The notes under the pieces were generated by a model. It saw only the letters and a list, made by a program, of their open reading frames with translations. It had not been told where the DNA came from and ran no database searches. A stretch of 50,389 nucleotides of DNA from a virus, in the IMG/VR virus record IMGVR_UViG_3300030098_001962, positions 1-50,389 of that record. One strand, given 5' to 3'. A program made the position numbers and the translations under genes. This document shows, one piece after another, positions 19,516-46,899 of the stretch (its first letter is position 1; each line of letters opens with the position of its first letter).

Positions 19516-21090
19516 TTAGTTCCAAACACTCCCAGCGAGGTTGTGTACCTCGTCCCAAGACATGTTTGCTAGTTCCTCTGTAGTTGGTATTGCTACACTG
19601 GAGTTGTCAGATGCTTTGCGGATTTCAGCCGCAGGTGTAGAAACGGACATGTTGTCGATTCTGTCACTTAGTTGGGAAATTGCCTTCTCGATAGTTGCGA
19701 GAGGGCCACGAGCGTCAAACTCTGCTGCTGCACGAGTCTGTGCTTCGGTTGTCAGTTCTTTCTGCAAGCGCTCAGAGAACACATCGTTCAAGTTGTTCTT
19801 GAACTGCTGTTCCATTGCTGCCGCCTTGAAAACTGCGTATGCTTCTTCAATTTCAGATGCGGAAACATTGTCAGGGTTTAGGTAAGACTTAGCGACATCG
19901 CCGCCTCCACCTAGTCCTGCACGGGAAATAGCGTTGGTTGATGGTGAGCCACCTTCAGTTGCACGACCCTTAACTTGGCCTGCAAAGTAGTCTGCTCCAT
20001 CTCCAATCTGCTCAGGAGTGCTACCAAGGTTAGCCTTGGCAACATCGTCAAAGTGTGCACGAGCAGCACCAGTGTCTACGCCAGCGGATTTCAAAGTGTT
20101 CTCCATCCAATCTAGGTATTCGCTAGTGATAACATCGCTGTACTCTGACTTCTTCGTGTCATCCTTGTACATCTTCTTTTCATCATCTTTCATTTCTTTC
20201 TTTTTATCTTCTTCTTCCTTTGCCATATCGTCGTCCTCGGCTAGTCTTAATTCTTCTTTAGGTTTTCTTTTTGGTCTGTCGTCCATATCCATGTCGTCAT
20301 CTTCGTCTTCGTCACGGTCTTCCAATGCTTCCTCCAAAGATTCCTCTTTGTCGCCATCTTTGTCCATGTCAAGGAAATCAGGTTTCTTCTTTCCTTCCAT
20401 GTCTTTGTGCATGCCCTTCATTTCTCCGTGCATGCCCTTGTTTTCATCTTCTTTGTCCATGTCGTCCAACTGCTTAGATAAACGATCGATTACGGATGCC
20501 AATTCACCCAATGCGTCTACTTCGTTTGTCATAGTAGTGTCCTCCTTCAGTATTCTAAAGGATGCTTCGGGGTTAATCCCCTTTTCACAAATAGTAACTT
20601 CGTGTAGTTCTAACTTGGAAATCTCAGTATAGTTTCCATGCTTTGCATCGGATTTGTTAATGCGCTTGAACGCCTGTCCTCCAATGCTGAACCCAGTTAG
20701 GTTACCCTTGCGAATCTCATTGGCTACTTCACGAGCCTTCTCGATGTCATCTCTAAGTTTGATGACAACGAACATGCCAGCGTCATCAACGCCGGACTTC
20801 CATAGTCTACCATCAGAGTCAGTGTAAGCCTTGATAACTTCACCGACCTGAATATTTGAGTGTGCTAGTTGTACATTGCGGAAGCCATCTGCTTTCATAA
20901 AGTTACCAAAGGCGTCCTTCAATGCTCCACGAGTAATCAAGTCACCCTGCTTGTCTACCATCTCTACAGATGCATAGCCAGCAATAATTAGGTCATTGGA
21001 TGACTTGACAATGGCAATACTAGCAGGATGGGCAGAGGTAGATGTCCTCAGTGCAGCCGCTGGTGCCATGCCAGTAATTACACCGCTCAT
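19516..21090 (-). CDS. Prohead protease fused to acidic scaffold
   Basis: 524 residues. Residues about 25-180 are a caudoviral prohead protease: LIIAGYASVEMVDKQGDLIT, then VQLAHSN with the likely catalytic His77, LTGFSIGGQ with the likely Ser135, and ELHEVTICEKGINPEA (His163). From about 185 to 310 it is an extremely charged Asp/Glu/Lys/Met region, followed by helices, typical of a scaffold that is digested after assembly. The C-terminus ends MSWDEVHNLAGSVW, a motif echoed in a neighbouring 119-residue protein. It sits directly upstream of the capsid gene. No good ribosome-binding site precedes the ATG. Confidence 0.85.
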   Translation of the reverse strand: MSGVITGMAPAAALRTSTSAHPASIAIVKSSNDLIIAGYASVEMVDKQGDLITRGALKDAFGNFMKADGFRNVQLAHSNIQVGEVIKAYTDSDGRLWKSGVDDAGMFVVIKLRDDIEKAREVANEIRKGNLTGFSIGGQAFKRINKSDAKHGNYTEISKLELHEVTICEKGINPEASFRILKEDTTMTNEVDALGELASVIDRLSKQLDDMDKEDENKGMHGEMKGMHKDMEGKKKPDFLDMDKDGDKEESLEEALEDRDEDEDDDMDMDDRPKRKPKEELRLAEDDDMAKEEEDKKKEMKDDEKKMYKDDTKKSEYSDVITSEYLDWMENTLKSAGVDTGAARAHFDDVAKANLGSTPEQIGDGADYFAGQVKGRATEGGSPSTNAISRAGLGGGGDVAKSYLNPDNVSASEIEEAYAVFKAAAMEQQFKNNLNDVFSERLQKELTTEAQTRAAAEFDARGPLATIEKAISQLSDRIDNMSVSTPAAEIRKASDNSSVAIPTTEELANMSWDEVHNLAGSVWN

Positions 21091-24000: not shown

Positions 24001-26411
24001 AGTGGAGCCAACATATCTTTCAAATGTGCAATCAATCTTGTAACAGTGTGCTTTGGATGCCTTGAAAAATTAGTACCTACTTGTTTAAGTTGATGACCTG
24101 ATGCAGTAATACCCATGTGTGCTGGAGTGCCGAGAGAAAGCGCATAGGACTTTATGTTCTCACTCCTAATTGCATCTGCAGCATCTGCCTCCGCTTTGTT
24201 TTGTGGGTCCATGGTATCTCTATAACCAAACTTCAAAGCAGAAGCCGGGGCATTGCGAGGGACTTTTATGAAGCGGCTTGATATTGGGTGAGTGCTAGGT
24301 AGCCCTTTTTCTTGGGCTTTCTTATGTTGGTGAACTGCCACTGGATCGAATACCGGCCTTCTCACAATGTGCTGCTGCTGCTGACCTGCGAAGGCTAAGG
24401 CATTGTGTGCGCCACCATAACCCTTTGATTCATCCTTTGAGTTTGTAACTTCACCTTTAGGATGAATGTAATTGTGCGGGTCATCAGGATGGTTATAATC
24501 AATCAATAGGTTGCGTTGCTCAAGTAACTTAGTTTCATAGTAATCTTTGAGTGATTTATTATGTCTATATTCATCAATCTGCTTTTCTATTTCTTTCAAC
24601 TTTTCTTCTGCGTTGGCTTTAGCAGTAGAATCCCCTGTTTCCATTATACGCTCTAAGTCCCGTTTCTTTTCAGGCAGGTTCATACGATTGAGGTTTTTTA
24701 ACACCTCATCAGCGGCAGAGTACTTTTCCATATATTCAGACTGTTCCTCTTCTGAAAATGGATGCTCAAATATGTGTGCCAAAACAAGCAGTGCGTTGTT
24801 TTGCTCTAAGCCTTCACCACCGACACCATTGAACATTTGAGTCCAAAAGTGAGACAGACCTTTATTGTCGCCCTCCATAAAGTCCTCCATGTGATTGTCA
24901 TGGACATGAGGGTGCGTAAAGAACAATGAATTATTTCTCAACTCTCTATCTTCGTAGTAACTCTTCCTGTGTCGCTCTGCACGACCTAACATATCCTGTA
25001 TATTTTCAGGATGAAGAGCATATCTTTTATCAAACTCTACACCTGACGGATTGCCACCTAAAGGAAAATACCCATTTCTATCTAAATCATAATGAAATGC
25101 AGCGGCTACTCCCTTTATCGAAAGATTATTTTTGTTGATAGAATTGTGCCAATCATATTTTTTAGGTGCCAATGTATCTAAGCGATCGACACTGAATCTT
25201 TTCTTTTTGGCGTTGTATTTAGGTAAATCGAACATGCGGCTAAATATTTCTTCTGCACGATACTGAGCGCCTTCTATGCTACTACTTTGTTTTGAAGCAT
25301 AAATCTTGTCAGCAAGTTCATCGATTTGGTCTTTGTATGGTTCTAATTTACCTAAGTGCTTCAGAACACCAACATGGTACCTTATCAATTCGTGGTCGTG
25401 CATAGCATTGTAAAGTGCCATAGGTTTGAGTGTTTCTTCAGCCGGTAGATTCTCATGTACTCCTATTTGATTATCTGCTGAAAATCTTTCAGGTCTTATG
25501 AGTGCTCTATAAAGCGGTAATATCTTTTTGTAACTACTGGTAATCATTCTACCTAAAGGTACCCTTACTTTCCCCATAGCATCAAGGGCAATAGAATGGT
25601 TACCATTATGGTCTAAATCATCTGCACGACCTTTGTCTATGCCACCCCTTTCTAATATCTCATCGTACAACTTTTTTCTCCTATCAGACCTTAAATGGCT
25701 AACACCTAACAATACATCTCGGAGTTCAGGTACATCTCCATCTATGAAATTATTTTCTAACATGTGTAATACGCTTTCATCCCCATGAATGTTATTATGA
25801 GTATGGTGCTGTATCGTAGGCTCATTCGCTTGGTTACTTAGTTCGTGAAAAATACCTTGATTGAAAACATTAGCCTCATTTGGTTTTGTTTTGAAATGCT
25901 TTGCCATATTCGCTAATCGCCTATTGTCATATTCGGCTTGAGATATTCCACCCAGTTCTTCTCTAGGAGTATAGTACAAAAAATTGTGAGCGATATAACG
26001 AGGTACCTTTCTGACTTTACCATCAGTAAATGTATGTTCTACTTCCCCATATGCGTGTTGTAAATGAGGATTTGTGTTAGCAGGTTGGCTCATGTCAAAA
26101 GTATTAGCAAACTCAGGGCTATACTGTAACTGACCTTGGAATAATGTGTTTATGTGCTGGGTTTCTTCAGGATCACCCATTTGACCTGATTCAGGACCAA
26201 GTTGGAAAAAATCAGTGTCACCTTCAGCCTTGGCAAGATACAACAACAAAGGCTCAAGACTAGGCTTACTGTAATACAAGTCTGCCTTTGTAACAACACC
26301 ATGGGCTTCTAAGTATTCATCAGCCGCCTCTGATACACCTACGCCATCGTATAGAGATTTGACGAATGTTTCTCTACGAAGGGTGAGAGTATCTAAAGGA
26401 GTTTCAATCAA
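21096..26411 (-). CDS. Giant head-operon protein with a DNA ligase-like C-terminal region
   Basis: 1771 residues from a TTG with GGTGATGAT just upstream. The first ~1200 residues are His/Asn-rich helical sequence of no known family (HHTHNNIHGDESVLHMLENN; FTHPHVHDNHMEDFMEGDN). Residues about 1285-1520 follow the order of an ATP-dependent DNA ligase: DWIVSAMPEGPRAFVEKKDD where motif I belongs, NVIDIVEYDDSDVHDMPLQE (motif IIIa region), KRLVLRDANSTYMKGE (motif IV region), and an OB-type strand YEVGDIVTVNVDSI. The nucleotide-accepting Lys of motif I (KxDG) is not apparent; Met-Pro-Glu-Gly stands there. An inactive or structural use is likely. It lies between portal-side genes and the protease. The tail is basic and disordered. 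Confidence 0.7.
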   Translation of the reverse strand: MIETPLDTLTLRRETFVKSLYDGVGVSEAADEYLEAHGVVTKADLYYSKPSLEPLLLYLAKAEGDTDFFQLGPESGQMGDPEETQHINTLFQGQLQYSPEFANTFDMSQPANTNPHLQHAYGEVEHTFTDGKVRKVPRYIAHNFLYYTPREELGGISQAEYDNRRLANMAKHFKTKPNEANVFNQGIFHELSNQANEPTIQHHTHNNIHGDESVLHMLENNFIDGDVPELRDVLLGVSHLRSDRRKKLYDEILERGGIDKGRADDLDHNGNHSIALDAMGKVRVPLGRMITSSYKKILPLYRALIRPERFSADNQIGVHENLPAEETLKPMALYNAMHDHELIRYHVGVLKHLGKLEPYKDQIDELADKIYASKQSSSIEGAQYRAEEIFSRMFDLPKYNAKKKRFSVDRLDTLAPKKYDWHNSINKNNLSIKGVAAAFHYDLDRNGYFPLGGNPSGVEFDKRYALHPENIQDMLGRAERHRKSYYEDRELRNNSLFFTHPHVHDNHMEDFMEGDNKGLSHFWTQMFNGVGGEGLEQNNALLVLAHIFEHPFSEEEQSEYMEKYSAADEVLKNLNRMNLPEKKRDLERIMETGDSTAKANAEEKLKEIEKQIDEYRHNKSLKDYYETKLLEQRNLLIDYNHPDDPHNYIHPKGEVTNSKDESKGYGGAHNALAFAGQQQQHIVRRPVFDPVAVHQHKKAQEKGLPSTHPISSRFIKVPRNAPASALKFGYRDTMDPQNKAEADAADAIRSENIKSYALSLGTPAHMGITASGHQLKQVGTNFSRHPKHTVTRLIAHLKDMLAPLGLPKLSQREPDDPTYSGKLKTPNKDVIRNRGKTDAIHDTHLHSNTDIGHAGEVEHHDRNIHEKERQSILRGLIGGEANSPLYPQEEHALHFDDARMEHHGHKLITDILRRDPVNNPISIGDVETNSKIIDDTTDYLQRNLDAYDRLKQQKNEIESKLDTRNPEHIRNFEERDRLQGMLQDITPFIEEFDDQMDARGKAQKLLNRSPRYNIKDLFEKINDIIDGGKGLPHDELSEELQKYIRGRVDGFRKTREKKLQRTIEADKKALTQIAADERNRWIDSQGLSFGDPNNIPRYLGNLAVYMKAMERRLHSEDTGGIYETLQSHMGHDPESGEKREETILTPITPQSDMNGSGSFVYYNHSSNEGKKFGFEADIKPVYDSHGKLVRFEQVEPYDFLSKTLTRPMYKQVGHEYEARWGPSMDSKMPYADESAIEMFGGGRRMVRKQEDATILLASLSNPDIMLKKDGEYPILQPMHRIFKLDDLEHLRGFSGDWIVSAMPEGPRAFVEKKDDKITVRGDFDLDKETKENFEKISKKNFVVDVVLADKEYNVIDIVEYDDSDVHDMPLQERIKILRGTMESTENVLLPAAHNLRLTDDVGLEVIVKDLLKEHKRLVLRDANSTYMKGENRHPKWVLYDEGQDVNLMVLDRKGTSSFTYRLGTGPITHEDSLGDRAVEYEGDTYMDVGTSFQSKDEYEVGDIVTVNVDSISVTESVDGADIYTVNSNEIKGEAEGEGVSSVETLSMFTKSEPMMWPHEIDRDGNRIVIKMAAGDVSYRASAIDGEWYMFNPKAENGWLIRLAESQRPFWSPVAGVMLKADLSLYDDESKAEVHESKNDGKPLIPPKKTKNTNFWESEVDDAIEHKKKVKRLLAKSLTLASSMLKSGVGAVGDSSTGAMGLGIDYATPIESPSGPTSLVGSKTMPDHDARDVERDNKERAEDKKMAHRKPVDDGEAGRLSIDKDKAAFVPY

Positions 26412-26872: not shown

Positions 26873-27232
26873 TCACTCCATTCCCATGTTGTTTCCGGTT
26901 GAGCCAGCACTCTTTGCCGACTCTGCTAATGCGTGAATCTCCGACCACTCCATTTGGTGAAACTCTTCATTGGTGCTTGGCATATCTAGGTCTGCACCTT
27001 TGATTACCATGTCGTCACCCATAGGTCTGAAGTCATCTTCTAACATTCCACTAGGCCTTTCGGTCTTTGACATAACAAATCCTGCCTTTCGTAGCATGTT
27101 CATCGGGTCTGCTATTGCTTTTCGCAAGTTTATGTTTTCTTGCTTGAGCGTTCTTAAATCACTATCCATGTTTTCCATTTTACTAATGAGTGCCCCCATT
27201 AGTTTCTCCGCTGTGTTCTCTCCCTCACTCAT
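26873..27232 (-). CDS. Small coiled-coil protein sharing a C-terminal motif with the scaffold
   Basis: 119 residues from an ATG (a TTG nine bases upstream is an alternative). The N-terminal half is a coiled coil (ISKMENMDSDLRTLKQENIN). The C-terminal part, MEWSEIHALAES, matches the scaffold-protease ending MSWDEVHNLAGS, preceded in both by a T/N-EE helix start. A scaffold-like helper or a duplicated scaffold tail is a reasonable reading. It lies two genes downstream of the portal. Confidence 0.65.
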   Translation of the reverse strand: MSEGENTAEKLMGALISKMENMDSDLRTLKQENINLRKAIADPMNMLRKAGFVMSKTERPSGMLEDDFRPMGDDMVIKGADLDMPSTNEEFHQMEWSEIHALAESAKSAGSTGNNMGME

Positions 27233-27242
27233 TGCGCTCAAC

Positions 27243-33192: not shown

Positions 33193-35136
33193 TCATGCAC
33201 CGCCAAATGTTACTTTAGTTGCTTTAACAATCAAAGGAGATACATTCCACTGCTTGGCTAGAACATCCCAATCTCCCTTTGTAGCCATTATGCCGTAAAC
33301 ATCTTGAGATGTTAGGCCCACAGATGTTGCAAACGAGCGAATATCATTGTAAGATTTCAAAGAGCGACCCTTCTTAACATACTTCATCACTCTATCGTCT
33401 TTGATTGCAGACATCATCTGTAAAGTTTCAAACGAGGTTCGTATTCTTTCAATGTCCATGCCTCCATATAAATCCGCCAAGGTACCTGAAGCAGGTGTGT
33501 CTTGGCCTCGATAAAACCAATCCATATTATTTGCAGGCATTTGGTTGCCACCTTGATAAGAGAGTCGATGCTCGTATGCTTCATTATACAAATCTACCAT
33601 AGTTTGTGCATCGGCTACTTGTTGAGCATTGCCCGGATTTTTCAATTGACCTATATCCCTTATGCGGTTTGCAGATTCAATGTGTGGCTCAGGGTGACCC
33701 TCTCTTATCAATTTGTTAATCAATGCTAAATTAGCAGCATGAAACGCATGCCCTATTTCACTAGCATTAGCAGCCGTAGTGTCCTTTACAGGATTTTCAA
33801 CACTCATAGACATTAAAGCAGCCCTTACTTCTCTATCAGTTAATCCTAATTGTGCTATGTAATTTTGAAAGTTTTGATTATCCACACCGCCCTTGACTTT
33901 GTTAGATACCTTTGTACGAGTGTCCTTTTCACCTTGCCTTCGTGTACCTATGCCAAACAACGCTGACATCTTAGGTGACAACACATTTGCTCTCAATGCA
34001 CCTTCACTTTCTTCCCTTGCTAACAAGTCGATTGCTTTTTGTTTAGATTCAGGAGATACATGTGCCATACCTTCGATACTTTGCAAAAACTGCTGCATAG
34101 CAACAACTCTGTCATAACTACCTTCACCTCTAGTTCTACCCTCTTGACTGTGCGCTTCTAAGGCGTATTTAGGAACAGGAGCACCACTGTGGGTTACATC
34201 AAACTCGCTATCATGTTGTTCAGCCGGTACATAGCCCTGACCTTGGTGATCTTTGTAACGCCTAAGAACTCTTTGAGGTATTATATTTTGTTTCATCTGA
34301 TTCATTTCTTTTTCAGTCAAAGTGTGAACCATACCCGAAGAAACTTCAGATAATGGCAAAATGTGATTTCTCGTCATTCTTTTGATTGGGTTAAATGCTT
34401 GAAAATTATCAAGTGGGCCTATTTCTCCTTCAGGTATACCCATCGACTTTTTCAACCAAGGTGCAGCCATTTGTAATGTTTCTCCAATTTCAACATTTAT
34501 TGGGTTGTAAATTGAATCTATACTGTTGCCTTGGTCGGCATTAGGGTCATCAATTGTACCCTTCTTTGTAAAGTGACTAACTTGGTGGCCTGCATCGGAT
34601 ATACTTCCATCAGCGTTTTGGATTTGTACGCCTCCGTGCCTTGAATGTTTAACAGTTGGCAAAAGTCTACCTGTAGCCATTATCGCTTTTGCTTCTTTTT
34701 CTGAAATATGGTCGCTGCCATGCAAAGTCCTCCACCTTTTACTACGAAAGCCGGACATTATGTTAGGAGAGTTTTCTCCTTCGATTTTAATTATTTTCTG
34801 ATTACGAGAGTGTATCATATGGTCGATGAAGTTAATGTATTGGTTTTTCATTTCATCCGTTTTTTCAAAACCATTCCTTTCTGATAAACGCAACAAGGCT
34901 TCTAACAATGCATCTATCATATGATAGTGACCGGGGCCGCTACCAGTAGGTGCTCTGTCCACCATACCTTCGCCATAAGGATTCGGAACTCCACCACCAT
35001 TTTTTGCTAAATCTTCTTCAGTTAGGTTGTCTGTATATCTTTCAAGTGTGCCATCCTCGTTAATGCGCAGTCGCATTGCACTCTTTTGTATTAGGTCGCC
35101 ACCCATCAAAGTAGAGCGAGGAGTTGTCTTAAACAT
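33193..35136 (-). CDS. Large head-operon protein of unknown function
   Basis: 647 residues; ATG overlaps the previous stop (TGATG) with AAGGG upstream. Starts MFKTTPRSTLMGGDLIQKSA. His- and Asn-rich helical protein with motifs such as GPGHYHMIDALLEALLRLSE and YINFIDHMIHSRNQKIIKIE, resembling in style the 1771-residue protein. No catalytic pattern was identified. The C-terminus ends with short helices (SYNDIRSFATSVGLTSQDVY). Lies between the 461-residue gene and the pre-terminase gene; likely a structural or assembly protein by context. Confidence 0.7.
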   Translation of the reverse strand: MFKTTPRSTLMGGDLIQKSAMRLRINEDGTLERYTDNLTEEDLAKNGGGVPNPYGEGMVDRAPTGSGPGHYHMIDALLEALLRLSERNGFEKTDEMKNQYINFIDHMIHSRNQKIIKIEGENSPNIMSGFRSKRWRTLHGSDHISEKEAKAIMATGRLLPTVKHSRHGGVQIQNADGSISDAGHQVSHFTKKGTIDDPNADQGNSIDSIYNPINVEIGETLQMAAPWLKKSMGIPEGEIGPLDNFQAFNPIKRMTRNHILPLSEVSSGMVHTLTEKEMNQMKQNIIPQRVLRRYKDHQGQGYVPAEQHDSEFDVTHSGAPVPKYALEAHSQEGRTRGEGSYDRVVAMQQFLQSIEGMAHVSPESKQKAIDLLAREESEGALRANVLSPKMSALFGIGTRRQGEKDTRTKVSNKVKGGVDNQNFQNYIAQLGLTDREVRAALMSMSVENPVKDTTAANASEIGHAFHAANLALINKLIREGHPEPHIESANRIRDIGQLKNPGNAQQVADAQTMVDLYNEAYEHRLSYQGGNQMPANNMDWFYRGQDTPASGTLADLYGGMDIERIRTSFETLQMMSAIKDDRVMKYVKKGRSLKSYNDIRSFATSVGLTSQDVYGIMATKGDWDVLAKQWNVSPLIVKATKVTFGGA

Positions 35137-36521
35137 CAAGCGACCCTTCCTGAACCCTTCCTACCAAATGTCTTACCGGAGCCACCAGCACCATCACTTC
35201 TACTACCGTGCTGTGCCTCATCTGCTTGAATGCTTTCAGTAGCACCCTGCGGATTAGTACCCATTGTGCCGTCACCCGGACCTGCTTCACCTATGCCTCC
35301 GGGGTCAGCCATCTTTAATCTGCGATCGTCAACTTTGTTTTTGAGTCTGCGAAGTAGTCTGCGCAACTGGTTGAATCGCATGTAGTCCATCTTTTTGCGA
35401 ACCCCTTCTAATGTTTTACGGACTTCTTCAGTGTCTTTACTACCTTTCTTTTTTAGTTCAGGGTGAAACTTCATAGTGACTTTCTTTGCGTCCTTTTTAA
35501 TTGATTTACCATCAACTAAAACTTCAATTGGATATGGTTCATGCTTGTCGTACCAATAGGCCATGTCATAACCACCGTTTTTTAGAAGTGTTACTAACAA
35601 GCCTCTGTCGTAATCTTTATCTTCTGCTTTCAAAACCATTTCTTTACCTCTTGGTAAAGTCAGGTCTATGTCTTTTTTCTTTAATAAAAACTCTGTAGAT
35701 GCTAACTTCATGCTTGGCTCACTGGGTTCTTTTGGTATTCTTGGAGGCGTTGGTTTACCAGCAGACTTTGGCCTTTCTGCACGAGTAGGGCGAGGTTGCA
35801 TACCTTTTGGCATCTCTATGCCACCCATCAATCTACGACTAGCATGCCTACCCAAAGATTGCTGGTACTTTTCAGGAAACAGGCTGATAGGTTGAGTAGT
35901 TTGTCTGTGACCTCTGTGTAATGCTAACGGTGCTTCGTTAAGCCCACCTTTTTCTGAAGGGTGACCTAACTTTGTGCCAACTATTTTGCTTCGCATTTCA
36001 GTAATCTTGTCAGCCTTGCTTCTGCCGTATGGCGTAGTTTCCATTTGGGGTTGAGTCCAAGGTTTGTGTTCTTTCAAAAGACTAGACCAAGCATCTGCCA
36101 TTGGCTCACTTGTTGCAATAGTCTGCTGACCGAATGGTTGGTTGACTTGTGCACCTACCGATTGACTTACATCAGGTCCACCCTGTCCGGGCATACCTGT
36201 CATTGCAGCAAACTGCTGACCTTCTTCAAATTGATTACTCATTTCAAGTGACTCTTCCATGTCCTCCATACCCGGAGGCAAGTCAGGTTTAGGCTCTACA
36301 GTTTCTAGTCTGAGATGTGGAAGGTCTTTGACTTTCTTTGCATTTTCTTTGTCAGCCTCAAGTTTATCTCTGCGCCTTTCCATCGATTCAGGATCGCCAA
36401 TGCCGTGTCGATAACTGTCGTCATCTTCAGAATTAGCCCCATACATGTTGTTTGATTCCGAGCGAGGAGCATACATTCGGGTATCTGACCCAGTTGACAT
36501 CCCGTAGTTTCCACTTGGCAT
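35136..36521 (-). CDS. Virion-associated protein with compact middle domain and disordered ends
   Basis: 461 residues. The N-terminal ~250 residues are polar and Pro/Gln/Met-rich. The middle (about 265-395) looks folded: LLKKKDIDLTLPRGKEMVLK, LLVTLLKNGGYDMAYWYDKH, PYPIEVLVDGKSIKKDAKKV, then a basic helix FNQLRRLLRRLKNKVDDRRL. The C-terminus is Gly/Ser-rich, ending FGRKGSGRVA. No known family is recognised. It lies between the small terminase candidate and a large unknown, overlapping the latter. The basic helix could contact DNA; this is inference. Confidence 0.7.
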   Translation of the reverse strand: MPSGNYGMSTGSDTRMYAPRSESNNMYGANSEDDDSYRHGIGDPESMERRRDKLEADKENAKKVKDLPHLRLETVEPKPDLPPGMEDMEESLEMSNQFEEGQQFAAMTGMPGQGGPDVSQSVGAQVNQPFGQQTIATSEPMADAWSSLLKEHKPWTQPQMETTPYGRSKADKITEMRSKIVGTKLGHPSEKGGLNEAPLALHRGHRQTTQPISLFPEKYQQSLGRHASRRLMGGIEMPKGMQPRPTRAERPKSAGKPTPPRIPKEPSEPSMKLASTEFLLKKKDIDLTLPRGKEMVLKAEDKDYDRGLLVTLLKNGGYDMAYWYDKHEPYPIEVLVDGKSIKKDAKKVTMKFHPELKKKGSKDTEEVRKTLEGVRKKMDYMRFNQLRRLLRRLKNKVDDRRLKMADPGGIGEAGPGDGTMGTNPQGATESIQADEAQHGSRSDGAGGSGKTFGRKGSGRVA

Positions 36522-39457: not shown

Positions 39458-40180
39458 TCACATTGTCAGTACATCTATTAATGTATTCTCTACATTCCAA
39501 CCAATTTTAGTAGCCATCATACCCCTTCTTGTAGGTATTCCGGCCTTTTGTAATCTAATTAAATCATCTCTAAAGGGGTCAAACATCTTGTGTTCACCCA
39601 GTCGCTGCTGTTGCCAAAGAACATTCGCCTGCTCGTCCCACCACTGGTCTGCCTTGTTAGCCACTAACATGATTACCTTTGGGCAATACTTTTTACCTCT
39701 AAGCCAAGAACGGAAATTACGATACCGATATTGGCGGTGAAGTATTGCATCTACTAAATATTTGAATCCGCCAACAGCCTGTAGCGCTGCATCGCCACCG
39801 GATAATGACCTATTGTCAAACATGAAAATCACAGCCTCTACATTACGATTAACCATATCGTCTATCCAAAGATTCCAAAATCTTTCATCGCCACCAAGGT
39901 CTGCAGAGTAAACCACACGCTTGTCACCCTTCCAACTGACACGCTTTCTAGTAGGGCGTGGCAACAAGAATCGGTTAAGACCGGGTACTCTGAAATGCTT
40001 AGTGCGCTCATCTTCAGGTATGTCCTCCATCTCTCCGGGTGTAGTCATGTACCGATCGAGTGTAGTTTTACCAGTCATAGGTGGGCCGTATACTCCGACC
40101 TTTCTTGGAACCCAATAATGGTAAAGTTCACGGGCGAAAACCATACCACCCACGAGTGCAGAACTACCCATTGCTGACAT
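39458..40180 (-). CDS. Small GTPase of the Ras/Arf type
   Basis: 240 residues, AGGTGATAAC before the ATG. All main G motifs are visible: P-loop YGPPMTGKTT (31-40), G3 DLGGDERFW (94-102), a hydrophobic strand VEAVIFMFDN (114-123), G4 NKAD (175-178) and a G5-like ATKIG (223-227). The DxGG form of G3 is Arf/G-alpha-like; the residue that is usually catalytic Gln is Asp (GGDERF), so hydrolysis may be slow or partner-dependent. The N-terminus (MSAMGSSALVGGMVFARELY) is a short amphipathic helix that could touch membrane. Transmembrane genes sit immediately upstream. It likely acts as a nucleotide switch at the host membrane. Confidence 0.8.
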   Translation of the reverse strand: MSAMGSSALVGGMVFARELYHYWVPRKVGVYGPPMTGKTTLDRYMTTPGEMEDIPEDERTKHFRVPGLNRFLLPRPTRKRVSWKGDKRVVYSADLGGDERFWNLWIDDMVNRNVEAVIFMFDNRSLSGGDAALQAVGGFKYLVDAILHRQYRYRNFRSWLRGKKYCPKVIMLVANKADQWWDEQANVLWQQQRLGEHKMFDPFRDDLIRLQKAGIPTRRGMMATKIGWNVENTLIDVLTM

Positions 40181-40188
40181 GTTATCAC

Positions 40189-40437
40189 CTAATCAAATAT
40201 AGAATTAGACCACTCTGCTAATTTATTTTTTAACCAATTGCCAGTAGATTCCCAAAGATTCCAGTCAGTGTAAAACTCAAACGCACTTACTACAAACGCA
40301 GTAGTTGTTGAAAAGATTAACACTTTAATCCAACCCATGCCTCTTTCATACGCTACATCAACGGTGTTAGCAATGTGCATACTCCTCAAAGTTTCCTCTA
40401 CAGCATCGTCAGAGGGTGTTTTGAAGATGCGGCCCAA
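40189..40437 (-). CDS. Single-pass small membrane protein
   Basis: 82 residues from TTG (40437) with GGAGTGATTC upstream. A polar N-terminal helix (DDAVEETLRSMHIANTVDVA) precedes one hydrophobic span (IKVLIFSTTTAFVVSAF), then a short aromatic C-terminal part (NLWESTGNWLKNKLAEW) that looks amphipathic. It lies eight bases upstream of the GTPase gene, so the two are almost certainly co-translated. A membrane anchor or receptor for the GTPase is the natural inference. Confidence 0.7.
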   Translation of the reverse strand: MGRIFKTPSDDAVEETLRSMHIANTVDVAYERGMGWIKVLIFSTTTAFVVSAFEFYTDWNLWESTGNWLKNKLAEWSNSIFD

Positions 40438-40443
40438 GAAGAA

Positions 40444-41004
40444 TCACTCCTTCTTTTTGAACTTGCCATCAGAGCCACGGACTCTTTTTGGCTTATCTTC
40501 ATTAAAATCTAAGCCTAAATTGATAGGTGCCTTCTCTTCTATAGAAGTATTAGGTATAAAGTCTGAATAGTTTGAAGGAGGTTGTGTCATTCTTTGTTGT
40601 ACCCAAGGAGGCGTCTTGCCGGGGTTATCTTCCATCCACTTTAGTTCGGCCTCAAGTTGTGCCTCTTGCATACGCATTTCCATATCTTGTCGGCGGCTAT
40701 CGAAGTTGACCTCCATAGTACGGTATCGATTTCTGCGTTCTCTCTCCATAGCGGCGAGCCTTGCCTTTTCGTCCATACCCTGTTGGAAAAACATCTTGAA
40801 AAGATAGTAAGCAAGTCCTTGCACAGCGAATGCAGCCATCGAATATGTCACTCCATTAACCATAGGATCGTTTAAGTCAATCCAAAGTTCAGCGTTGAAG
40901 ATACCAACTGCTAATCCAATAGACATGGACTGCATTAGGATTAATCCCATCAATCGTATTTCACTTTGGTCGTGTTCAGGTATAGGTGCAGAAGTGCTCA
41001 ACAT
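40444..41004 (-). CDS. Membrane protein with basic coiled-coil tail
   Basis: 186 residues from the ATG preceded by GAGGGACACTTT; a GTG 39 bases upstream has no good site. Two to three hydrophobic spans lie at about 18-75 (LMGLILMQSMSIGLAVGIF; TYSMAAFAVQGLAYYLFKMF). A long charged helix follows (RLAAMERERRNRYRTMEVNF; MEMRMQEAQLEAELKWMED), then a Lys-rich end. The helix should face the cytoplasm. It is the first gene of the membrane-GTPase cluster as transcribed. Confidence 0.7.
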   Translation of the reverse strand: MLSTSAPIPEHDQSEIRLMGLILMQSMSIGLAVGIFNAELWIDLNDPMVNGVTYSMAAFAVQGLAYYLFKMFFQQGMDEKARLAAMERERRNRYRTMEVNFDSRRQDMEMRMQEAQLEAELKWMEDNPGKTPPWVQQRMTQPPSNYSDFIPNTSIEEKAPINLGLDFNEDKPKRVRGSDGKFKKKE

Positions 41005-41077
41005 AAAGTGTCCCTCTCTGTCATTGGGAAATAATAGTATCACATAAATGATTCTGTGATAACAAAATTACACTTTG

Positions 41078-42454
41078 TCACTTTTTTGTACGCTTGCCAT
41101 CCTTTGAAGGACCCGGACCCGTGCCTTGTGCACCAAGCACAATTATCATACCATGGGCAGGTTTTTTACTACCTTTTTTGTCACCTTTCTTTTCAGTGTC
41201 ACCCATGCAATGTGCTTTGTGTATTCGTTCCTTTGTTTCTTTCAAAAGTTGTTCTCCAATCTTCATATTATCACCTTTGTTTGTTCCGTAAGCGCCACCG
41301 CCTTCTGCCTCACGCTGCGCTTCTAATATACCCTTACCGCCTTTCTTTCTCCAAATCTGTTGATATTCTGAGTCAGATGACTGTCGGTTACCTATGTTTG
41401 CTACACCAGTACCCGCTGCTCCTCCCGAAGGAGTTGCACTTGCTGTGCCTGAAATGTTAGGACTACCTGTGTTACCAAGTACACCTGCACCCACTGAGGC
41501 TGCTACTTGTCGTATCTTAGGACTATGGAGCAAACCCTGCGCTGTTCGATAAGCAAGATTCCCACGACTACCAGCACCTGCAGTGCGACTTGTAACTCCG
41601 TATGCACCTCTGCCTCCGGTCTTATCATAGAAAGTATCTAGTTCTTCCAAGCGCCTTGCTTTGTTTCTAGCAGTTCTATCTAAACCTGCTTGGCCGCTAG
41701 TTTGCAAACCTTTGATTCCGGTTTTTTCTCCAACTTTTTTGGTAGCCTGTGCACCGAGTCTACTTACGCCTTCTTTGGCAGAAGATAATGCACGACCTGA
41801 TGCTCTTGCTGTACCACCCACTACCGCAAACGGATTAATCATACTACCAATAGCACTGACCGCACCCCTTGATATGCGCTGCCAAATGCTAGGATTTTCA
41901 ATTGGTTCTCCTATTGGCTCACCTGTAAGTGGATGAATGTAAGATGTAGTATCTTCGTAATCAAATACATCACTATAATCAGTTTCACCAAATGGCTGAC
42001 CGGGACTTATTGCATTACCTATGTCTGTAAATACATTGCCGACCAAACTTGCTTTAGAGCCTTGGCTTCGATTAAGAGCATCAAGTGCAAACACACCAGC
42101 AACTACAATCGGGATAAACTTTGTAATTTTGAAAGTGCCCGGAGATGTACTTTCAGGCACATCGCCATCAGGTGCCATATCCAGTGCTTCTTTCAGTTTA
42201 CCACGATGCTCTTCAAACATTTTGTGTGCAGATGCAAGTAACTGGCACTTTGCGTTGTCAGGCATTTTATGAAAGGCCTCGTTGACTTGTTGCATAACCA
42301 TCTGCTTTTCAGGAGGTAAAGACTCAAAATAACTAGATGCGGCCTTTACATCTGCAGGATCCATGACTTGAGTATAGTCAAAGTTATCACGCCCACCATC
42401 CCGCTTGAGTACTGCCCAAGCAGCCTCAGTCGGTATCGATGATGAACTCCACAT
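41078..42454 (-). CDS. Large protein with degenerate PFDxAW peptide near the N-terminus
   Basis: 458 residues from the ATG of MWSSSSIPTEAAWAVLKRDG with GTGGGATG upstream. The start PTEAAWAVLK aligns with the PFDxAWxxLK peptide of eight proteins here. The next part is helical (VMQQVNEAFHKMPDNAKCQL), then IIVAGVFALDAL-like KFIPIVVAGVFALDALNR, one weak hydrophobic helix. Residues about 230-380 are Gly/Ala/Ser-rich and basic (GTARASGRALSSAKEGVSRL), resembling phage internal or membrane-penetrating head proteins. The end is basic. Overlaps the upstream 79-residue gene by 29 bases. Function not recognised. Confidence 0.65.
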   Translation of the reverse strand: MWSSSSIPTEAAWAVLKRDGGRDNFDYTQVMDPADVKAASSYFESLPPEKQMVMQQVNEAFHKMPDNAKCQLLASAHKMFEEHRGKLKEALDMAPDGDVPESTSPGTFKITKFIPIVVAGVFALDALNRSQGSKASLVGNVFTDIGNAISPGQPFGETDYSDVFDYEDTTSYIHPLTGEPIGEPIENPSIWQRISRGAVSAIGSMINPFAVVGGTARASGRALSSAKEGVSRLGAQATKKVGEKTGIKGLQTSGQAGLDRTARNKARRLEELDTFYDKTGGRGAYGVTSRTAGAGSRGNLAYRTAQGLLHSPKIRQVAASVGAGVLGNTGSPNISGTASATPSGGAAGTGVANIGNRQSSDSEYQQIWRKKGGKGILEAQREAEGGGAYGTNKGDNMKIGEQLLKETKERIHKAHCMGDTEKKGDKKGSKKPAHGMIIVLGAQGTGPGPSKDGKRTKK

Positions 42455-42665
42455 GTAGCATCCCACGCTTGCGCTGCTCATAAGCATGTTGTAAGAACTG
42501 GTGATGGTCGGCAACTTCCATTAGGTATGCCAAATCAGTCCAAGAGGTATGCTTGTTAGCATCTCCTTCTAATTTAGTCAAATCTTCAAAACTGACAGTC
42601 GTCATTGCTGTCAAAACATTAGCCCACCAGTCGGTGGGTTGTATTGGCTCACCCTCGTCGGCCAC
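42426..42665 (-). CDS. Small acidic protein of unknown function
   Basis: 79 residues from a GTG; the ribosome-binding site is weak. The sequence is Asp/Glu/Trp-rich and helical: PTDWWANVLTAMTTVSFEDL, then LAYLMEVADHHQFLQHAYEQ, ending HVEFIIDTD. No domain is recognised. The 29-base overlap with the 458-residue gene suggests translational coupling. Confidence 0.6.
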   Translation of the reverse strand: MADEGEPIQPTDWWANVLTAMTTVSFEDLTKLEGDANKHTSWTDLAYLMEVADHHQFLQHAYEQRKRGMLHVEFIIDTD

Positions 42666-42712: not shown

Positions 42713-43309
42713 TTAACAATTCCATCTTTTCAGTGCTGCGCCTTTTGGTGTTAGTTTGCCTTTCTTTGAGGTTGGACCTTTCACTCCAGTCATGCGAGCA
42801 CAGAATGATTTGCGGCGCTTTGCTTTCTTAGAGCCGGCTTTGAGTTTGCTAGGTTTAGTTGTAACAGGTGGCTTGAGGTTAGCGCCGGTCTTGCGCTTTG
42901 CAGCAGCACGACCTTTGGCGTTCAGTCCACCCTTTTTGCTGTGCTTGTTAGGGTTATATCCGTGAAACGGTTTAGACTTCTTCTTTGCCTTGAGTAAACC
43001 CCATGCTTCGTCAAATGGAGCCAAGTTTAGTTCACCACTTTTCACAACGGTGGGCTTCCCACCCACTCCTTGCTTCTTGGACCTCTTTCTTTTAGTTGCC
43101 GCTTGCTTCTGCCCTTCAGACATTTGGCCCGAAGTCTTTGGGGTTTTACTTGAAACCTTAACACTGGGCCTACATTTAGGATATCCTTTGCTAGATTTTT
43201 TGGCTTTACTGCGCCCACAGGGTGGATGCTTGCCGGTCTTTGGATCTTTACGGGAAACATCAACCCACTTTTCTTTGAACCAACGGTTGAGGTTTTTCTC
43301 TACCGTCAT
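42713..43309 (-). CDS. Lys-rich basic protein joining two marine-virus modules around an internal PFDxAW peptide
   Basis: 198 residues, strongly basic. N-terminal module: NRWFKEKWVDVSRKDPKTGK then CGRSKAKKSSKGYPKCRPS, and a KRKRSKKQG end, as in small proteins common in marine phages and giant viruses. C-terminal module: KSFCARMTGVKGP then GAALKRWNC, another widespread small-protein ending. Between them residues 98-107 read PFDEAWGLLK, the peptide that starts several proteins in the next genes. A TTG at 43024 just before it has GGTGA seven bases upstream, so the second half may also be made alone. Possibly DNA-condensing; function unknown. Confidence 0.75.
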   Translation of the reverse strand: MTVEKNLNRWFKEKWVDVSRKDPKTGKHPPCGRSKAKKSSKGYPKCRPSVKVSSKTPKTSGQMSEGQKQAATKRKRSKKQGVGGKPTVVKSGELNLAPFDEAWGLLKAKKKSKPFHGYNPNKHSKKGGLNAKGRAAAKRKTGANLKPPVTTKPSKLKAGSKKAKRRKSFCARMTGVKGPTSKKGKLTPKGAALKRWNC

Positions 43310-43497
43310 TTCTTTTTCCCCTTCTTCTTGCGGAACTTACCTCGACAGTACTGCACTGCCCAGCCGTTTGCATAGGCCGAAGGGTAGACTTTGAACTTGC
43401 GTTTTGCTGCTGCTTTGCCAGCCGGACACAACTTCTTTTCCAAGAAATCAAACGCTGCGTTCATACCAACGCATTGCCCGCAGTCGCAGCCGACCAT
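43306..43497 (-). CDS. Small basic cysteine-bearing protein, marine-phage type
   Basis: 63 residues, ATG overlapping the next gene's start by four bases at its end. Begins with CDCGQC, then FLEKKLCPAGKAAAKRKFKV and YPSAYANGWAVQYCRGKF, ending in a run of lysines. The CP.GK.AAKRKF.VYPSAYAN pattern is familiar from hypothetical proteins of marine tailed phages. No clear ribosome-binding site precedes the ATG at 43497; an inner ATG at 43464 is an alternative start. The role is unknown; a nucleic-acid-associated structural protein is plausible from charge. Confidence 0.7.
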   Translation of the reverse strand: MVGCDCGQCVGMNAAFDFLEKKLCPAGKAAAKRKFKVYPSAYANGWAVQYCRGKFRKKKGKKK

Positions 43498-43795: not shown

Positions 43796-44185
43796 TCACC
43801 TTGCATCTTCAAACCCAATTATTCTACCTATCTCGTTATACACAGGTCTAACTTCTGCATTACTTGGATCTGTTTCCAATGCAGTTTGAGGAGTTAATTT
43901 AGCAGCGAGTTCGGGTCTGACAGGAGGACGAGCGGGCGGAACTGGACTCATCTCACGGATGCCACGCTCGTCTAGTGGTATATCTGCTAAGTTACCTGTT
44001 GGTGAAACTAAGTTTGATGGTTTACGAAGAGCAAGTTCGGGAGGAGTAGTGCTTTCCATCCCCGGAGGTGGGAACTCAACTGGCGGTGGCCTCATGCCCG
44101 GAGGATCTTGAGGGTAGTTATTCTGCATAGGCATCTCACCTTCATTCTTCAGCAACACCCAAGCCTGTTCAAAAGGACTCGCCAT
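43796..44185 (-). CDS. PFDxAW-peptide protein, Pro-rich
   Basis: 129 residues beginning MASPFEQAWVLLKNEGEM, one of the shared N-terminal peptides. The rest is Pro/Glu-rich and probably disordered (MRPPPVEFPPPGME; VPPARPPVRPELAAKL), with a short possible folded end VRPVYNEIGRIIGFEDAR. It lies downstream of the HMG-CoA lyase-like gene with a two-base gap. No function beyond the shared peptide. Confidence 0.75.
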   Translation of the reverse strand: MASPFEQAWVLLKNEGEMPMQNNYPQDPPGMRPPPVEFPPPGMESTTPPELALRKPSNLVSPTGNLADIPLDERGIREMSPVPPARPPVRPELAAKLTPQTALETDPSNAEVRPVYNEIGRIIGFEDAR

Positions 44186-44187
44186 GA

Positions 44188-45036
44188 CTACACCGAAAGG
44201 GTTTGGGCTAAAGAAGGTTCTGCTATCTTCAAAGCAATGCGCTTGGCGTTGGCAAGGTCATCTATAGACACGCCACAGTCGTAACCCCTAGCGGTCAACC
44301 AGTTGACTAGTGACTCGGTTGCCAAGTTGCCGGGACTCCCCTCTACAAACGGACAGCCCCCTAAGCCAGCAATACTAGAATCAAACTCATCAATGCCGCA
44401 CTCAATACCTTTGCGAACCAGCGAAAGAGCATGCAGTTCACGATCTGCAAGGTGGTGAAGATGAAGCGCAGGTCGAATACCTACCTTCTCACAGATACCT
44501 GCAGCGACCTCGACCTCATGCTCGGTGCCAGTCCCAACAGTATCTGCCAGCACCACAGTGTCGCCAAACAGTTTCGCAGCCTGAATCGCCCTAACACGCT
44601 TGCTCATAGGAATGTCACCCTCGTAAGGACAGCCGAAGTAGCACGATATATAGATACGGACATTGGCCTTCGGTATACCCTCAAGCATGAAAGCGTACCT
44701 AGCAATTGCCTCATTCAGTTCACAACCAAGGTTACGCCTGTTAAACTCCTCACTCGGAGAGAATACAATGTTGAAGTAAGTAACCCCTGACTTAATCGCA
44801 CGGTCCATTCCACGCTGATTCATAACGAGCGCAGCCCCCTGCCCATCGAAAACCCTCTCGGCATCTGCCATCTGAGGAACATAAAGCGGGTGAGCAAAAC
44901 TCACAGTTTCTATAGAACGCAAGCCTGCGCTCCTAAGTGCATCGATTAACGCCCGCTTCATCCGGGTAGGTACGACCTTCTTGATTGTCTGCAATCCATC
45001 ACGAGGGCCGACTTCGTAAATTGAAATCTTCTTCAT
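44188..45036 (-). CDS. HMG-CoA lyase-family metalloenzyme
   Basis: 282 residues; ATG at 45036 with GGTGGGG upstream (a GTG at 45045 is possible). TIM-barrel HMG-CoA lyase signatures: YEVGPRDGLQ at the N-terminus (Arg-Asp metal and substrate site), SFAHP near 50, HLHHL as the metal-binding HxH, and GLGGCPFVEGSPGNLATESL, which keeps the Cys of the active loop and the metal-binding Asn. All key residues are present and the length is about normal for bacterial or archaeal enzymes (~300). It should cleave HMG-CoA to acetoacetate and acetyl-CoA, or act on a similar acyl-CoA. It sits among small virion-type genes as an auxiliary metabolic gene. Confidence 0.85.
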   Translation of the reverse strand: MKKISIYEVGPRDGLQTIKKVVPTRMKRALIDALRSAGLRSIETVSFAHPLYVPQMADAERVFDGQGAALVMNQRGMDRAIKSGVTYFNIVFSPSEEFNRRNLGCELNEAIARYAFMLEGIPKANVRIYISCYFGCPYEGDIPMSKRVRAIQAAKLFGDTVVLADTVGTGTEHEVEVAAGICEKVGIRPALHLHHLADRELHALSLVRKGIECGIDEFDSSIAGLGGCPFVEGSPGNLATESLVNWLTARGYDCGVSIDDLANAKRIALKIAEPSLAQTLSV

Positions 45037-45054
45037 CAGCCCCACCCATGTCTA

Positions 45055-45207
45055 TCACTTCAGGAAAAACAGGGCTTTCAAGACTTTACGCCAATTGACA
45101 GTCAACTTTTCACCAGTAACGAACTCAATACCTGTTTCTGCTTCTACACGATCTAACCTTGATGACTGGTGGTCGAACCACTCGTCTAGTAGGGTGCAGC
45201 GTGTCAT
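45055..45207 (-). CDS. Small protein of unknown function
   Basis: A 50-codon frame from the ATG at 45207: MTRCTLLDEWFDHQSSRLDR, then VEAETGIEFVTGEKLTVNWR and a hydrophobic-basic end (KVLKALFFLK). CGGAG lies about seven bases before the ATG. It fills the gap between the membrane peptide gene and the HMG-CoA lyase-like gene. The spacing and start signal make it credible; function not recognised. Confidence 0.55.
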   Translation of the reverse strand: MTRCTLLDEWFDHQSSRLDRVEAETGIEFVTGEKLTVNWRKVLKALFFLK

Positions 45208-45239
45208 GTTGACTCCGAAGGATGTTCAGGAGTTAAGTT

Positions 45240-45386
45240 TTACTGTTCAAATGCCCCTAAGTCAACAATTATCGGAGGCTCTCCTCTCGGCCAAAATAGT
45301 GTCACAAAAAATGAAACCAAACCCAGTATGACGCATAATAACCAAAGGGGCAGGCCTGTCAGTTCAACGGGGTCAGGAAGTGTCAT
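45240..45386 (-). CDS. One-helix membrane peptide
   Basis: 48 residues from the ATG at 45386, which overlaps the previous stop as ATGA. Sequence: a short polar start (MTLPDPVELTGLP), one strong hydrophobic span (LWLLCVILGLVSFFVTLFW), then PRGEPPIIVDLGAFEQ. Membrane insertion with the C-terminus inside (positive-inside Arg) is likely. It is flanked by PFDxAW genes. Function unknown. Confidence 0.65.
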   Translation of the reverse strand: MTLPDPVELTGLPLWLLCVILGLVSFFVTLFWPRGEPPIIVDLGAFEQ

Positions 45387-45742
45387 TGTTGTTCTGCAAA
45401 TGCTGGAAACTGCTCTCTTATAGTTTGATTTTCCGAAGGATTAGCAGAGGGTAGCGGGTGATTCGGTGGATGATGAGGGCTTTCAACCATACGATTATCT
45501 GCAAAAGTAAACATGTTAGTTTGCCCTCCTCTTAATTTTGAACCTAACCTGTCATGTAATGTGCCAGCATCAGAGTTTTGCATTTGGGATAATATGGCTG
45601 CTACATCTTCTGCGGGTAAGTCATTGAAATTAGGACTCAAGTTGTGACCCATGTTCATTTTTTTGTTTTGAAAATAATACCTAGCCGCTTCACTGCTAGT
45701 CTGTTTCAACAAAGTCCACGCTTGGTCGAAAGGCTTCATCAT
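45383..45742 (-). CDS. PFDxAW-peptide protein, 119 residues
   Basis: Starts MMKPFDQAWTLLKQTSSEAA at the ATG 45742 (GAGTGAT upstream, overlapping the previous stop). The body has a helix LPAEDVAAILSQMQNSDAG, then LGSKLRGGQTNMFTFADNR and a Pro/His/Asn-rich end. The 25 bases coding the peptide are identical to those of the neighbouring 70-residue gene, so the two starts were copied recently or exchanged. No other domain is recognised. Confidence 0.75.
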   Translation of the reverse strand: MMKPFDQAWTLLKQTSSEAARYYFQNKKMNMGHNLSPNFNDLPAEDVAAILSQMQNSDAGTLHDRLGSKLRGGQTNMFTFADNRMVESPHHPPNHPLPSANPSENQTIREQFPAFAEQQ

Positions 45743-45743
45743 A

Positions 45744-45956
45744 TCACTCAATCCCTAGTTCCTGCTGTCTACGCCTAATTGCTTCCATCGCTTGAGCGGT
45801 TTTGCTTTCTTCTGACTGCTCGTAAGCAGCCCGCTCCGCCGCAGCCTTTTCTCGTGCCGCCTTCGCTGCCTGTCTTTCAGGGTCAGGAGTAAAAGGATTG
45901 TAAATCTGCTTTTCTTCTTTTAGAAAAGTCCACGCTTGGTCGAAAGGCTGCATCAC
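45744..45956 (-). CDS. PFDxAW-peptide protein with charged coiled coil
   Basis: 70 residues beginning MMQPFDQAWTFLKEEKQIYN. Residues about 27-66 are a highly charged Ala/Glu/Lys/Arg helix (KAAREKAAAERAAYEQSEES; AMEAIRRRQQELGIE), likely a coiled coil. It overlaps the winged-helix gene by four bases at its start and the 119-residue gene at its end. Confidence 0.75.
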   Translation of the reverse strand: MMQPFDQAWTFLKEEKQIYNPFTPDPERQAAKAAREKAAAERAAYEQSEESKTAQAMEAIRRRQQELGIE

Positions 45957-46177
45957 AATCCATCCATCAAGATCGCATCACCGTGCTTGTGCATCTTGAC
46001 ATTATTCATGGACGCAATCAATTTCTTACACGCACTAGTAGAAAGCCCAGTCGCCTTGCAAAGCAAGTCCACACCAGCGGCACCACCCTCCTTCTTGAGA
46101 GTCTTAACGATAGTCGCCTTGTGCTTCTCCATGTCGTCTTCTTTCAAAATATTCCAAGCCTGTTCAAATGGTATCAT
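45953..46177 (-). CDS. PFDxAW-peptide protein with winged-helix-like domain
   Basis: 74 residues from the ATG of MIPFEQAWNILKEDDMEKHK; a GTG nine bases upstream is an alternative. After the shared peptide (residues 3-12) comes what reads as a small winged helix: ATIVKTLKKEGGAAGVDLLC, the recognition helix region GLSTSACKKLIASM, then a two-strand wing VKMHKHGDAILMDGL. A DNA-binding domain directly behind the peptide is informative: if the peptide loads proteins into the capsid, this would be an injected regulator. Confidence 0.7.
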   Translation of the reverse strand: MIPFEQAWNILKEDDMEKHKATIVKTLKKEGGAAGVDLLCKATGLSTSACKKLIASMNNVKMHKHGDAILMDGL

Positions 46178-46191
46178 GGGTATCACTGTCC

Positions 46192-46665
46192 TTAATATCC
46201 ACCTACAAAGTCGCCGGGGTTGTTAGCATCCTTTGGATAAGGGTACATTAAACGAGGGTCCATGTCGTCACGAGAAAGTGCAGGGTAATCAAGACTCTCA
46301 TTTACACGCATTCCATCTATTACTGGCCTGTAATCGGAACCATCAGGGTCGCTTTCTCGTGCCGCTCTTTCACTCGCAGTGCGTCGCCGTGCCATATCAT
46401 CACCAGTGCTAAAGTTAGCAGGTTCTAGTTCATTGTAAGTGTCTCTTACTCGACCTCTAGTGTCCTCATCTTCGATGGTTCTTACATTGAACTGGCGGTT
46501 TTCAAAAGTTTTGGGCCTTGGTTGTAACTGGTTGTCAACATATTGTCTTTCCATAGGTGCGTAAGAACCCTGCCTACTGTGAGCAAAAGGATAAATCGAG
46601 CCTTTGTTAGGCTCACCTGATGTATAACTTTTCAGGAGTTGCCAAGCATGATCGAAAGGGCGCAT
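46192..46665 (-). CDS. PFDxAW-peptide protein, polar and Arg-rich
   Basis: 157 residues starting MRPFDHAWQLLKSYTSGEPN. The remainder is polar with many Arg, Asp, Pro and Tyr (TRGRVRDTYNELEPANFSTG; ARRRTASERAARESDPDG), ending PKDANNPGDFVGGY. It is probably disordered, with no catalytic or metal motif. The first 16 bases of its coding strand match the 73-residue gene upstream. Confidence 0.75.
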   Translation of the reverse strand: MRPFDHAWQLLKSYTSGEPNKGSIYPFAHSRQGSYAPMERQYVDNQLQPRPKTFENRQFNVRTIEDEDTRGRVRDTYNELEPANFSTGDDMARRRTASERAARESDPDGSDYRPVIDGMRVNESLDYPALSRDDMDPRLMYPYPKDANNPGDFVGGY

Positions 46666-46677
46666 AATTGTTCACTC

Positions 46678-46899
46678 CTAATATCCTAATACTCCTTCCA
46701 AGTGACTAAGCGTTGCCTTTTCTTCAGGGTGCGCCGTTTGTCCACTGTTCGTTAATGAAAGTAATTCGTGATACCTAGTTAGAGCATCTCTCTCTTGCAT
46801 AGGTGTAAGCCCTTTAGGAAAAGGAGATTTGGCTTGGTCAATTGGTAATACTCTCCCTTGCTGTTTAAGCAGAGTCCAAGCACGATCGAAAGGGCGCAT
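46678..46899 (-). CDS. PFDxAW-peptide protein, first gene of the leftward block
   Basis: 73 residues starting MRPFDRAWTLLKQQGRVLPI. The body has a Pro break and a helix (LTPMQERDALTRYHELLSLT), then TAHPEEKATLSHLEGVLGY. It is the promoter-proximal gene of the array and presumably the first translated of the leftward transcript. The preceding ~100 bases are AT-rich. No function beyond the shared peptide. Confidence 0.75.
   Translation of the reverse strand: MRPFDRAWTLLKQQGRVLPIDQAKSPFPKGLTPMQERDALTRYHELLSLTNSGQTAHPEEKATLSHLEGVLGY

Follow-up and report, generated by a model that had tools for sequence, protein, structure and literature searches.

Why should a run of small and otherwise dissimilar viral genes begin with the same ten residues? 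The question is raised by the IMG/VR virus record IMGVR_UViG_3300030098_001962, whose positions 1 to 50,389 were analysed here as one stretch of 50,389 nucleotides (the window). The record is from a head-tailed virus, with genes for an HK97-type capsid protein and a head protease, and between positions 43796 and 46899 several open reading frames (ORFs) start with variants of the peptide PFDxAWxxLK, hereafter the tag. An earlier reading, made from the sequence only, had proposed that a common amphipathic tag directs unrelated cargo to one partner or place. This proposal is supported in related viral records, where the conserved residues map to one helix face and the tag precedes or interrupts up to ∼89 groups of proteins, and the observation is larger than first noticed. 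We consider it only slightly better than even that the tag is a clade-wide docking helix bringing late, variable, mostly non-core proteins to one receptor, most likely in the assembling head, for prohead loading and delivery.

Magroviruses, the clade that the window fits, are known only from metagenomes, and their late genes are mostly unannotated. A shared address peptide puts roughly a tenth of magrovirus ORFs (159 of 1881 called) in one functional class, and would predict effectors acting on uncultured archaea. As a cargo signal for an HK97-type shell the tag would be both portable and testable, and it would allow a direct test of what archaeal tailed viruses deliver alongside their DNA.

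The tag in the window

By direct translation, the strict pattern PF[DE]xAWxx[LIV]K occurs in seven ORFs of the window and weak forms in two more, all on the minus strand. The six N-terminal peptides, the internal copy in a 198-residue protein and the weak PTEAAWAVLK that make up the earlier count of at least eight proteins were all found as described; a ninth, weak copy (TSE-PMADAWSSLLK, in a 461-residue ORF) had gone unnoticed.

Five of the six small genes that had been called consecutive are so, running from 46899 down to 45383. They are ORFs of 73 residues (46678–46899; PFDRAWTLLK at 46864–46893, scoring 34.3 bits with the profile described below), 157 residues (46192–46665; PFDHAWQLLK at 46630–46659), with relatives in the sister records G014 and G005 that are also tagged, 77 residues (45953–46186; PFEQAWNILK at 46142–46171, then a predicted winged-helix domain), 70 residues (45744–45956; PFDQAWTFLK at 45918–45947, the remainder Arg/Glu-rich) and 122 residues (45383–45751; PFDQAWTLLK at 45704–45733). 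The sixth, a Pro-rich ORF of 129 residues (43796–44185; PFEQAWVLLK at 44147–44176), is set apart from them by a 50-residue ORF and an untagged HMG-CoA-lyase-like gene (44188–45045, minus strand; Pfam HMGL-like, 1.6e-22), which is present in 17 of 21 related records.

In the basic 198-residue protein (42713–43309), the tag PFDEAWGLLK (42989–43018, residues 98–107) lies between the Pfam domains DUF5872 and DUF6321 (residues 123–196). PTEAAWAVLK (42404–42433; 21.7 bits) belongs to a 458/478-residue protein (41078–42514) and is kept in G005 and G014. The ninth copy is internal (36072–36104) to a protein of the structural operon (35136–36521), whose homologues in 14 other records bear P-M-[DE]-x-A-[WF].

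Recurrence in related records

A degenerate DNA pattern for the peptide recovered at least 118 stretches in viral contigs. The strict pattern gave 95 matches and its reversal none (50 of those records searched whole), always on one strand per record. The records are metagenomic and often fragments, and ORFs were called mechanically rather than by a gene finder. A position-weight profile, built from 75 distinct tags and applied to 21 fetched records and the window with a cut-off of ≥14 bits, found 208 copies in 173 ORFs, 2–17 per record, against none in the reversed proteins of these 22 records.

So that the tag did not enter into the choice, 34 records were selected on their capsid protein alone. 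Strict matches were present in 12 of them, and the other 22 at first seemed to lack the tag. In ten whole capsid-picked records, all with zero or one strict match, the profile gave 23 matches in total, against none in reverse, and the two without a profile match (G066 and G071) do not include the cargo region. Among the profiled capsid-picked records the tag is thus present whenever the cargo region is included; where it had seemed to be lacking, it is degenerate or the region is missing. All 20 tag-bearing records with a head module share with the window the capsid protein (73–93% identical), the terminase (68–98%) and the portal.

The strict N-terminal pattern, the form scanned in 84,980 bacterial and archaeal genomes, has five scattered matches there, about chance level, and a host-derived motif was rejected on this ground. 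The tag was looked for and not found in the named relatives HVTV-1, vir519 and vir335. A literature search for the peptide string, with most subscription papers outside its scope, returned no paper.

Form of the tag

In the N-terminal form there is hardly any variation at A5, W6, L9 and K10; in the profile, most tags have F, M, L or I at position 2, and position 3 is D or E. The internal form reads roughly [TAKRS][GS]E-PMD[LI]A[WFM][RQ]LLK. Of 208 copies, 149 were classed as N-terminal, ∼20 of which look internal from an upstream [GS]E, and 59 are internal or near the C-terminus. Long proteins may carry three to six tags, as in one of 1205 residues with six and one of 870 residues with four; the only matches recognised in these multi-tag proteins are to SAM-lyase (S-adenosylmethionine lyase)/DUF3293 and, weakly, to GNAT. 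No conserved residue pattern was found directly behind the tag (profile positions 11–15).

F2, A5, W6 and L9 fall within a 100-degree helix arc. The mean hydrophobic moment is 0.48 against 0.29 after shuffling of the columns, a value as high as the observed one being reached in 51 of 1000 shuffles, and the tag is modelled as a helix in two cargo models. The best explanation is that the tag is an autonomous amphipathic helix with Phe2, Ala5, Trp6 and Leu9 on one face.

Strand and presumed timing

Tagged ORFs lie on the capsid-gene strand in 166 of 173 cases, against 1107 of 1881 for all ORFs (Fisher p=1.5e-31, a test in which clustered tagged genes are not fully independent observations). Strand is used here as a proxy for late expression. 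Two of the seven opposite-strand matches read PFDEAxALAK, one of them in a Pfam DNA polymerase B ORF. Because tagged ORFs concentrate upstream of a GTPase-like gene and the terminase, with few elsewhere, they would stand at the start of the presumed late transcript.

Cargo behind the tag

With the tag masked, BLAST divided the 173 tagged ORFs into ∼89 groups, a figure taken as an upper bound on unrelated cargo families because many tagged ORFs are disordered. The cargo is mostly small and mostly non-core, and includes DNA-binding proteins, enzyme-like domains and disordered proteins. The winged-helix assignment in the window comes from an AlphaFold model with Foldseek matches, and in this model the tag is continuous with the first helix of the domain. 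In other records DUF6321 begins directly with the tag (G020 4531, G047 32420).

An HD cargo protein matches Pfam HD_4 at 1.3e-5, just under the Pfam cut-off, and a (p)ppApp hydrolase in the PDB at 9e-11; the latter alignment starts at residue 15, right behind the tag, which thus lies outside the domain. This protein appears to be a (p)ppGpp/(p)ppApp (alarmone) hydrolase-like enzyme. Structure models also suggest an ADP-ribosyltransferase-like (ART-like) fold among the cargo, with Foldseek probabilities up to 1.0 to KptA/Tpt1, but with E-values above 0.001, low TM-scores and weak sequence support. Further cargo matches are to SAM-lyase/DUF3293 (8.5e-5 and 2.1e-5) and, weakly, to GNAT, and HExxH-containing tagged proteins are also present.

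Directly behind the tag of ART-like cargo stands RQTTLGEF(H/Y)HP (L125:5904-6572, L147:8473-8946, L129:12424-13601 and others), which looks like a candidate for an archaeal PCNA-binding PIP box. PIP-like strings occur ∼19 times per 100,000 residues in tagged ORFs, 1 time in other late ORFs and 4 times in early ORFs.

A proposed docking helix for late proteins

In the explanation we prefer, PFDxAWxxLK would be a short linear docking motif read by a single viral receptor. This receptor most likely lies in the assembling head, with the inner face of the capsid protein and the scaffold-like C-terminal part of the protease as candidates. Tagged proteins would be expressed late, taken up by the prohead and delivered to the next cell, like the T4 internal proteins and Alt. 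A capsid-linked late destination is favoured because tagged genes share the strand of the structural genes, are mostly non-core and in several cases encode effector-like enzymes. Prohead loading and delivery is preferred because a single docking helix is common to late, variable, mostly non-core proteins, among them enzymes that would be of use as an infection begins.

The closest known parallel is phage T4, in which a 10-residue capsid-targeting sequence (CTS) is common to divergent internal proteins, and in which Alt is an ADP-ribosyltransferase (PMC9026906). Both systems place ∼10 residues on divergent proteins, late ones in T4 (IPI, IPII, IPIII and Alt) and presumed late ones here (208 copies on at most ∼89 groups), both have a virus-encoded maturation protease, and the T4 ADP-ribosyltransferase has a possible counterpart in the ART-like fold (PMC9026906, PMC7411985). 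The T4 peptide, however, is an N-terminal propeptide removed by gp21, whereas the magrovirus peptide occurs inside proteins or at the C-terminus as well, is repeated within proteins, and is spread over dozens of families, with up to 17 copies in one record. The sequences show no evident cut behind it, and its packaging is a prediction. The sequence-only reading had suggested T4-like removal of the tag, which is not upheld, as about one third of tags are away from the N-terminus and the sole conserved candidate site, [GS]E, precedes internal tags.

Ahead of the 59 internal tags, E is found at -1 in 47 and G or S at -2 in 53. This [GS]E resembles the Glu-specific head-protease sites (AXE) of phage SPN3US (PMC7411985), and the head protease might cut there and release modules that each start with a tag. 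The cut is only suggested, because late proteins in general show no enrichment of [GS]E as a protease site and Pro after the putative cut (P1') is unusual. In SPN3US/phiKZ-type phages, ejection proteins are head-loaded, and the A/T-G/S-E ahead of internal magrovirus tags is partly like AXE (PMC7411985); the propeptides there are long (111–130 residues) and removed, unlike one shared short helix that would stay on the product.

Encapsulin cargo-loading peptides are also short linear peptides on unrelated enzymes that enter an HK97-type shell, and fusion to such a peptide can bring in heterologous cargo (PMC8346489, PMC11866011). An HK97-fold shell protein is encoded in the window as well (phrog_24667). 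The likeness is drawn from descriptions, and encapsulins enclose a single native cargo or a handful of them in a compartment of the host, against many cargoes in a tailed virus. Polyvalent proteins (Iyer et al. 2017) are long multidomain viral proteins with effector-type domains, many of them probably packaged (PMC5512222), and are comparable to the magrovirus proteins of 870–1205 residues with four to six tags. A term search of that paper turned up no shared short docking peptide, and magrovirus cargo is mostly small.

Several points weigh against head loading. The tag is known from metagenomic sequence alone, with no cultured tagged relative, and we infer both the head location and the receptor. 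The products of late genes might just as well work within the same cell, at assembly or lysis. A strict, cleaved N-terminal CTS of the T4 type is not what the sequences show, and the two weaknesses of the putative cut (no enrichment, Pro at P1') count here too. Recognisable function is confined to a minority of the cargo, and the amphipathicity test is marginal by itself (∼5%).

Beyond the docking helix itself, we tentatively consider a general modular loading system, less probable than the simpler proposal. One receptor would serve dozens of exchangeable tagged proteins, together with polyproteins that the head protease would cut ahead of each tag, and the virion would hold a changeable pack of a dozen effectors.

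Other explanations

The main rival, which we regard as unlikely, is that the tag docks late proteins on a viral hub outside the head, for action in the infected cell at assembly or exit. The hub could be the packaging machinery, the partners of the 461-residue protein, or a conserved membrane/GTPase-like cassette near the tagged genes (39458–41043), which consists of two short proteins containing hydrophobic segments and a GTPase-like protein of 240 residues in which the stretch ADLGGDERFW is Arf-like. The GTPase-like gene adjoins the cargo genes and is present in 18 of 21 related records, the 461-residue protein of the structural operon itself bears the motif, and the tagged genes are on the late strand. 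On the other hand, alarmone hydrolase-like, ART-like and SAM-lyase-like enzymes would be more sensible at entry than at assembly. A direct link to the cassette was not found, nor did the GTPase-like protein have a match in Pfam, PHROG or PDB sequence searches.

Amphipathic helices of the FxxxWxxL type are common ligands of protein grooves, so the tag might instead bind a host protein, in order to recruit, sequester or destabilise it or to use a host compartment. The PIP-box-like RQTTLGEF(H/Y) of several cargoes would fit host or viral clamp binding via short motifs. We hold this to be slightly less probable still, because cellular genomes lack the strict N-terminal form above about chance level and the early-strand genes are without the tag, which is confined to late-strand genes.

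The sequence-only reading also offered a recombination foothold, and the shared peptide could equally be imagined as a trace of recent duplication, with no binding role. In the window, codons at conserved tag residues are identical at a rate of 0.35, against 0.38 expected from the codon usage of the record, and the DNA flanking the tags is unrelated (29–34% identical); most records agree. The Trp and Ala of the N-terminal form hardly ever change although codons drift, and internal copies with differing flanks retain the same residues. The amino acid sequence of the tag is conserved, not the DNA, and since codons vary freely among unrelated flanks, selection is placed at the peptide level. Codon sharing does exceed expectation in records G008, G016 and G036, so some copies are recent. 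With codon identity at chance and unrelated flanks, the foothold idea therefore fails, and we give it very little credence.

Equally improbable is that the peptide is the first helix of one homologous domain in all tagged proteins: the winged-helix model, in which tag and domain helix are continuous, would allow it, but masked clustering leaves ∼89 groups with unrelated folds, the HD match starts behind the tag, and the tag of the window's DUF6321 protein lies between two Pfam domains.

The virus and its other genes

The major capsid protein (MCP) gene (18331–19500, minus strand; phrog_24667, 3.9e-56) served as the marker of clade and late strand. It adjoins the head maturation protease gene (19516–21090, minus; PHROG, 3e-14), whose product has a long scaffold-like C-terminal region in the alignment. 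Portal- and terminase-like genes are also on the minus strand and kept in relatives. The related records consist of two opposed gene blocks, and the strand opposite the capsid genes carries replication genes, including a clamp-loader-like AAA protein and DNA polymerase B, and also a chaperonin. The early-strand chaperonin of record G005 (L129:7000-8496) is a full-length Cpn60/TCP-1-family protein (4.6e-128).

The nearest named capsid proteins to that of the window are those of haloviruses HCTV-1 and HVTV-1 (33–34%). The magrovirus group has been described as having an MCP related to haloviruses, a large genome and a near-complete set of replication genes (PMC10160649). The halovirus-like capsid, together with the AAA, DNA polymerase B and chaperonin genes found opposite the capsid genes in the related records, fits this clade, an assignment made by group description rather than by alignment to a named magrovirus. 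Magroviruses reportedly rank with the most abundant viruses of the sea (PMC10160649), and the literature on the clade gives Poseidoniales (Marine Group II, MGII) as the host.

The capsid protein has an invariant N-terminal SGSELLK, whose GSE resembles the [GS]E ahead of internal tags. In every record aligned, the C-terminus of the protease reads IPSTEELAxMSWDEVHxLA, and a separate 122-residue ORF (26873–27241) ends in MPSTNEEFHQMEWSEIHALAES, which suggests two scaffold proteins that may share a C-terminal docking motif. Between portal and protease lies a protein of 1771 residues (21096–26411) that had no match in a PHROG search and is conserved across records mainly in its C-terminal third; in HVTV-1, a large protein annotated as zeta toxin has a similar position. 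Among the tagged genes there is also a small, untagged basic protein, KFKVYPSAYANGWAVQYCRGKFRKKKG (43306–43497). An ORF in record G048 beginning MTDCDCEHCFGMQTAWDLLEKK looks related to it and may hold a decayed tag.

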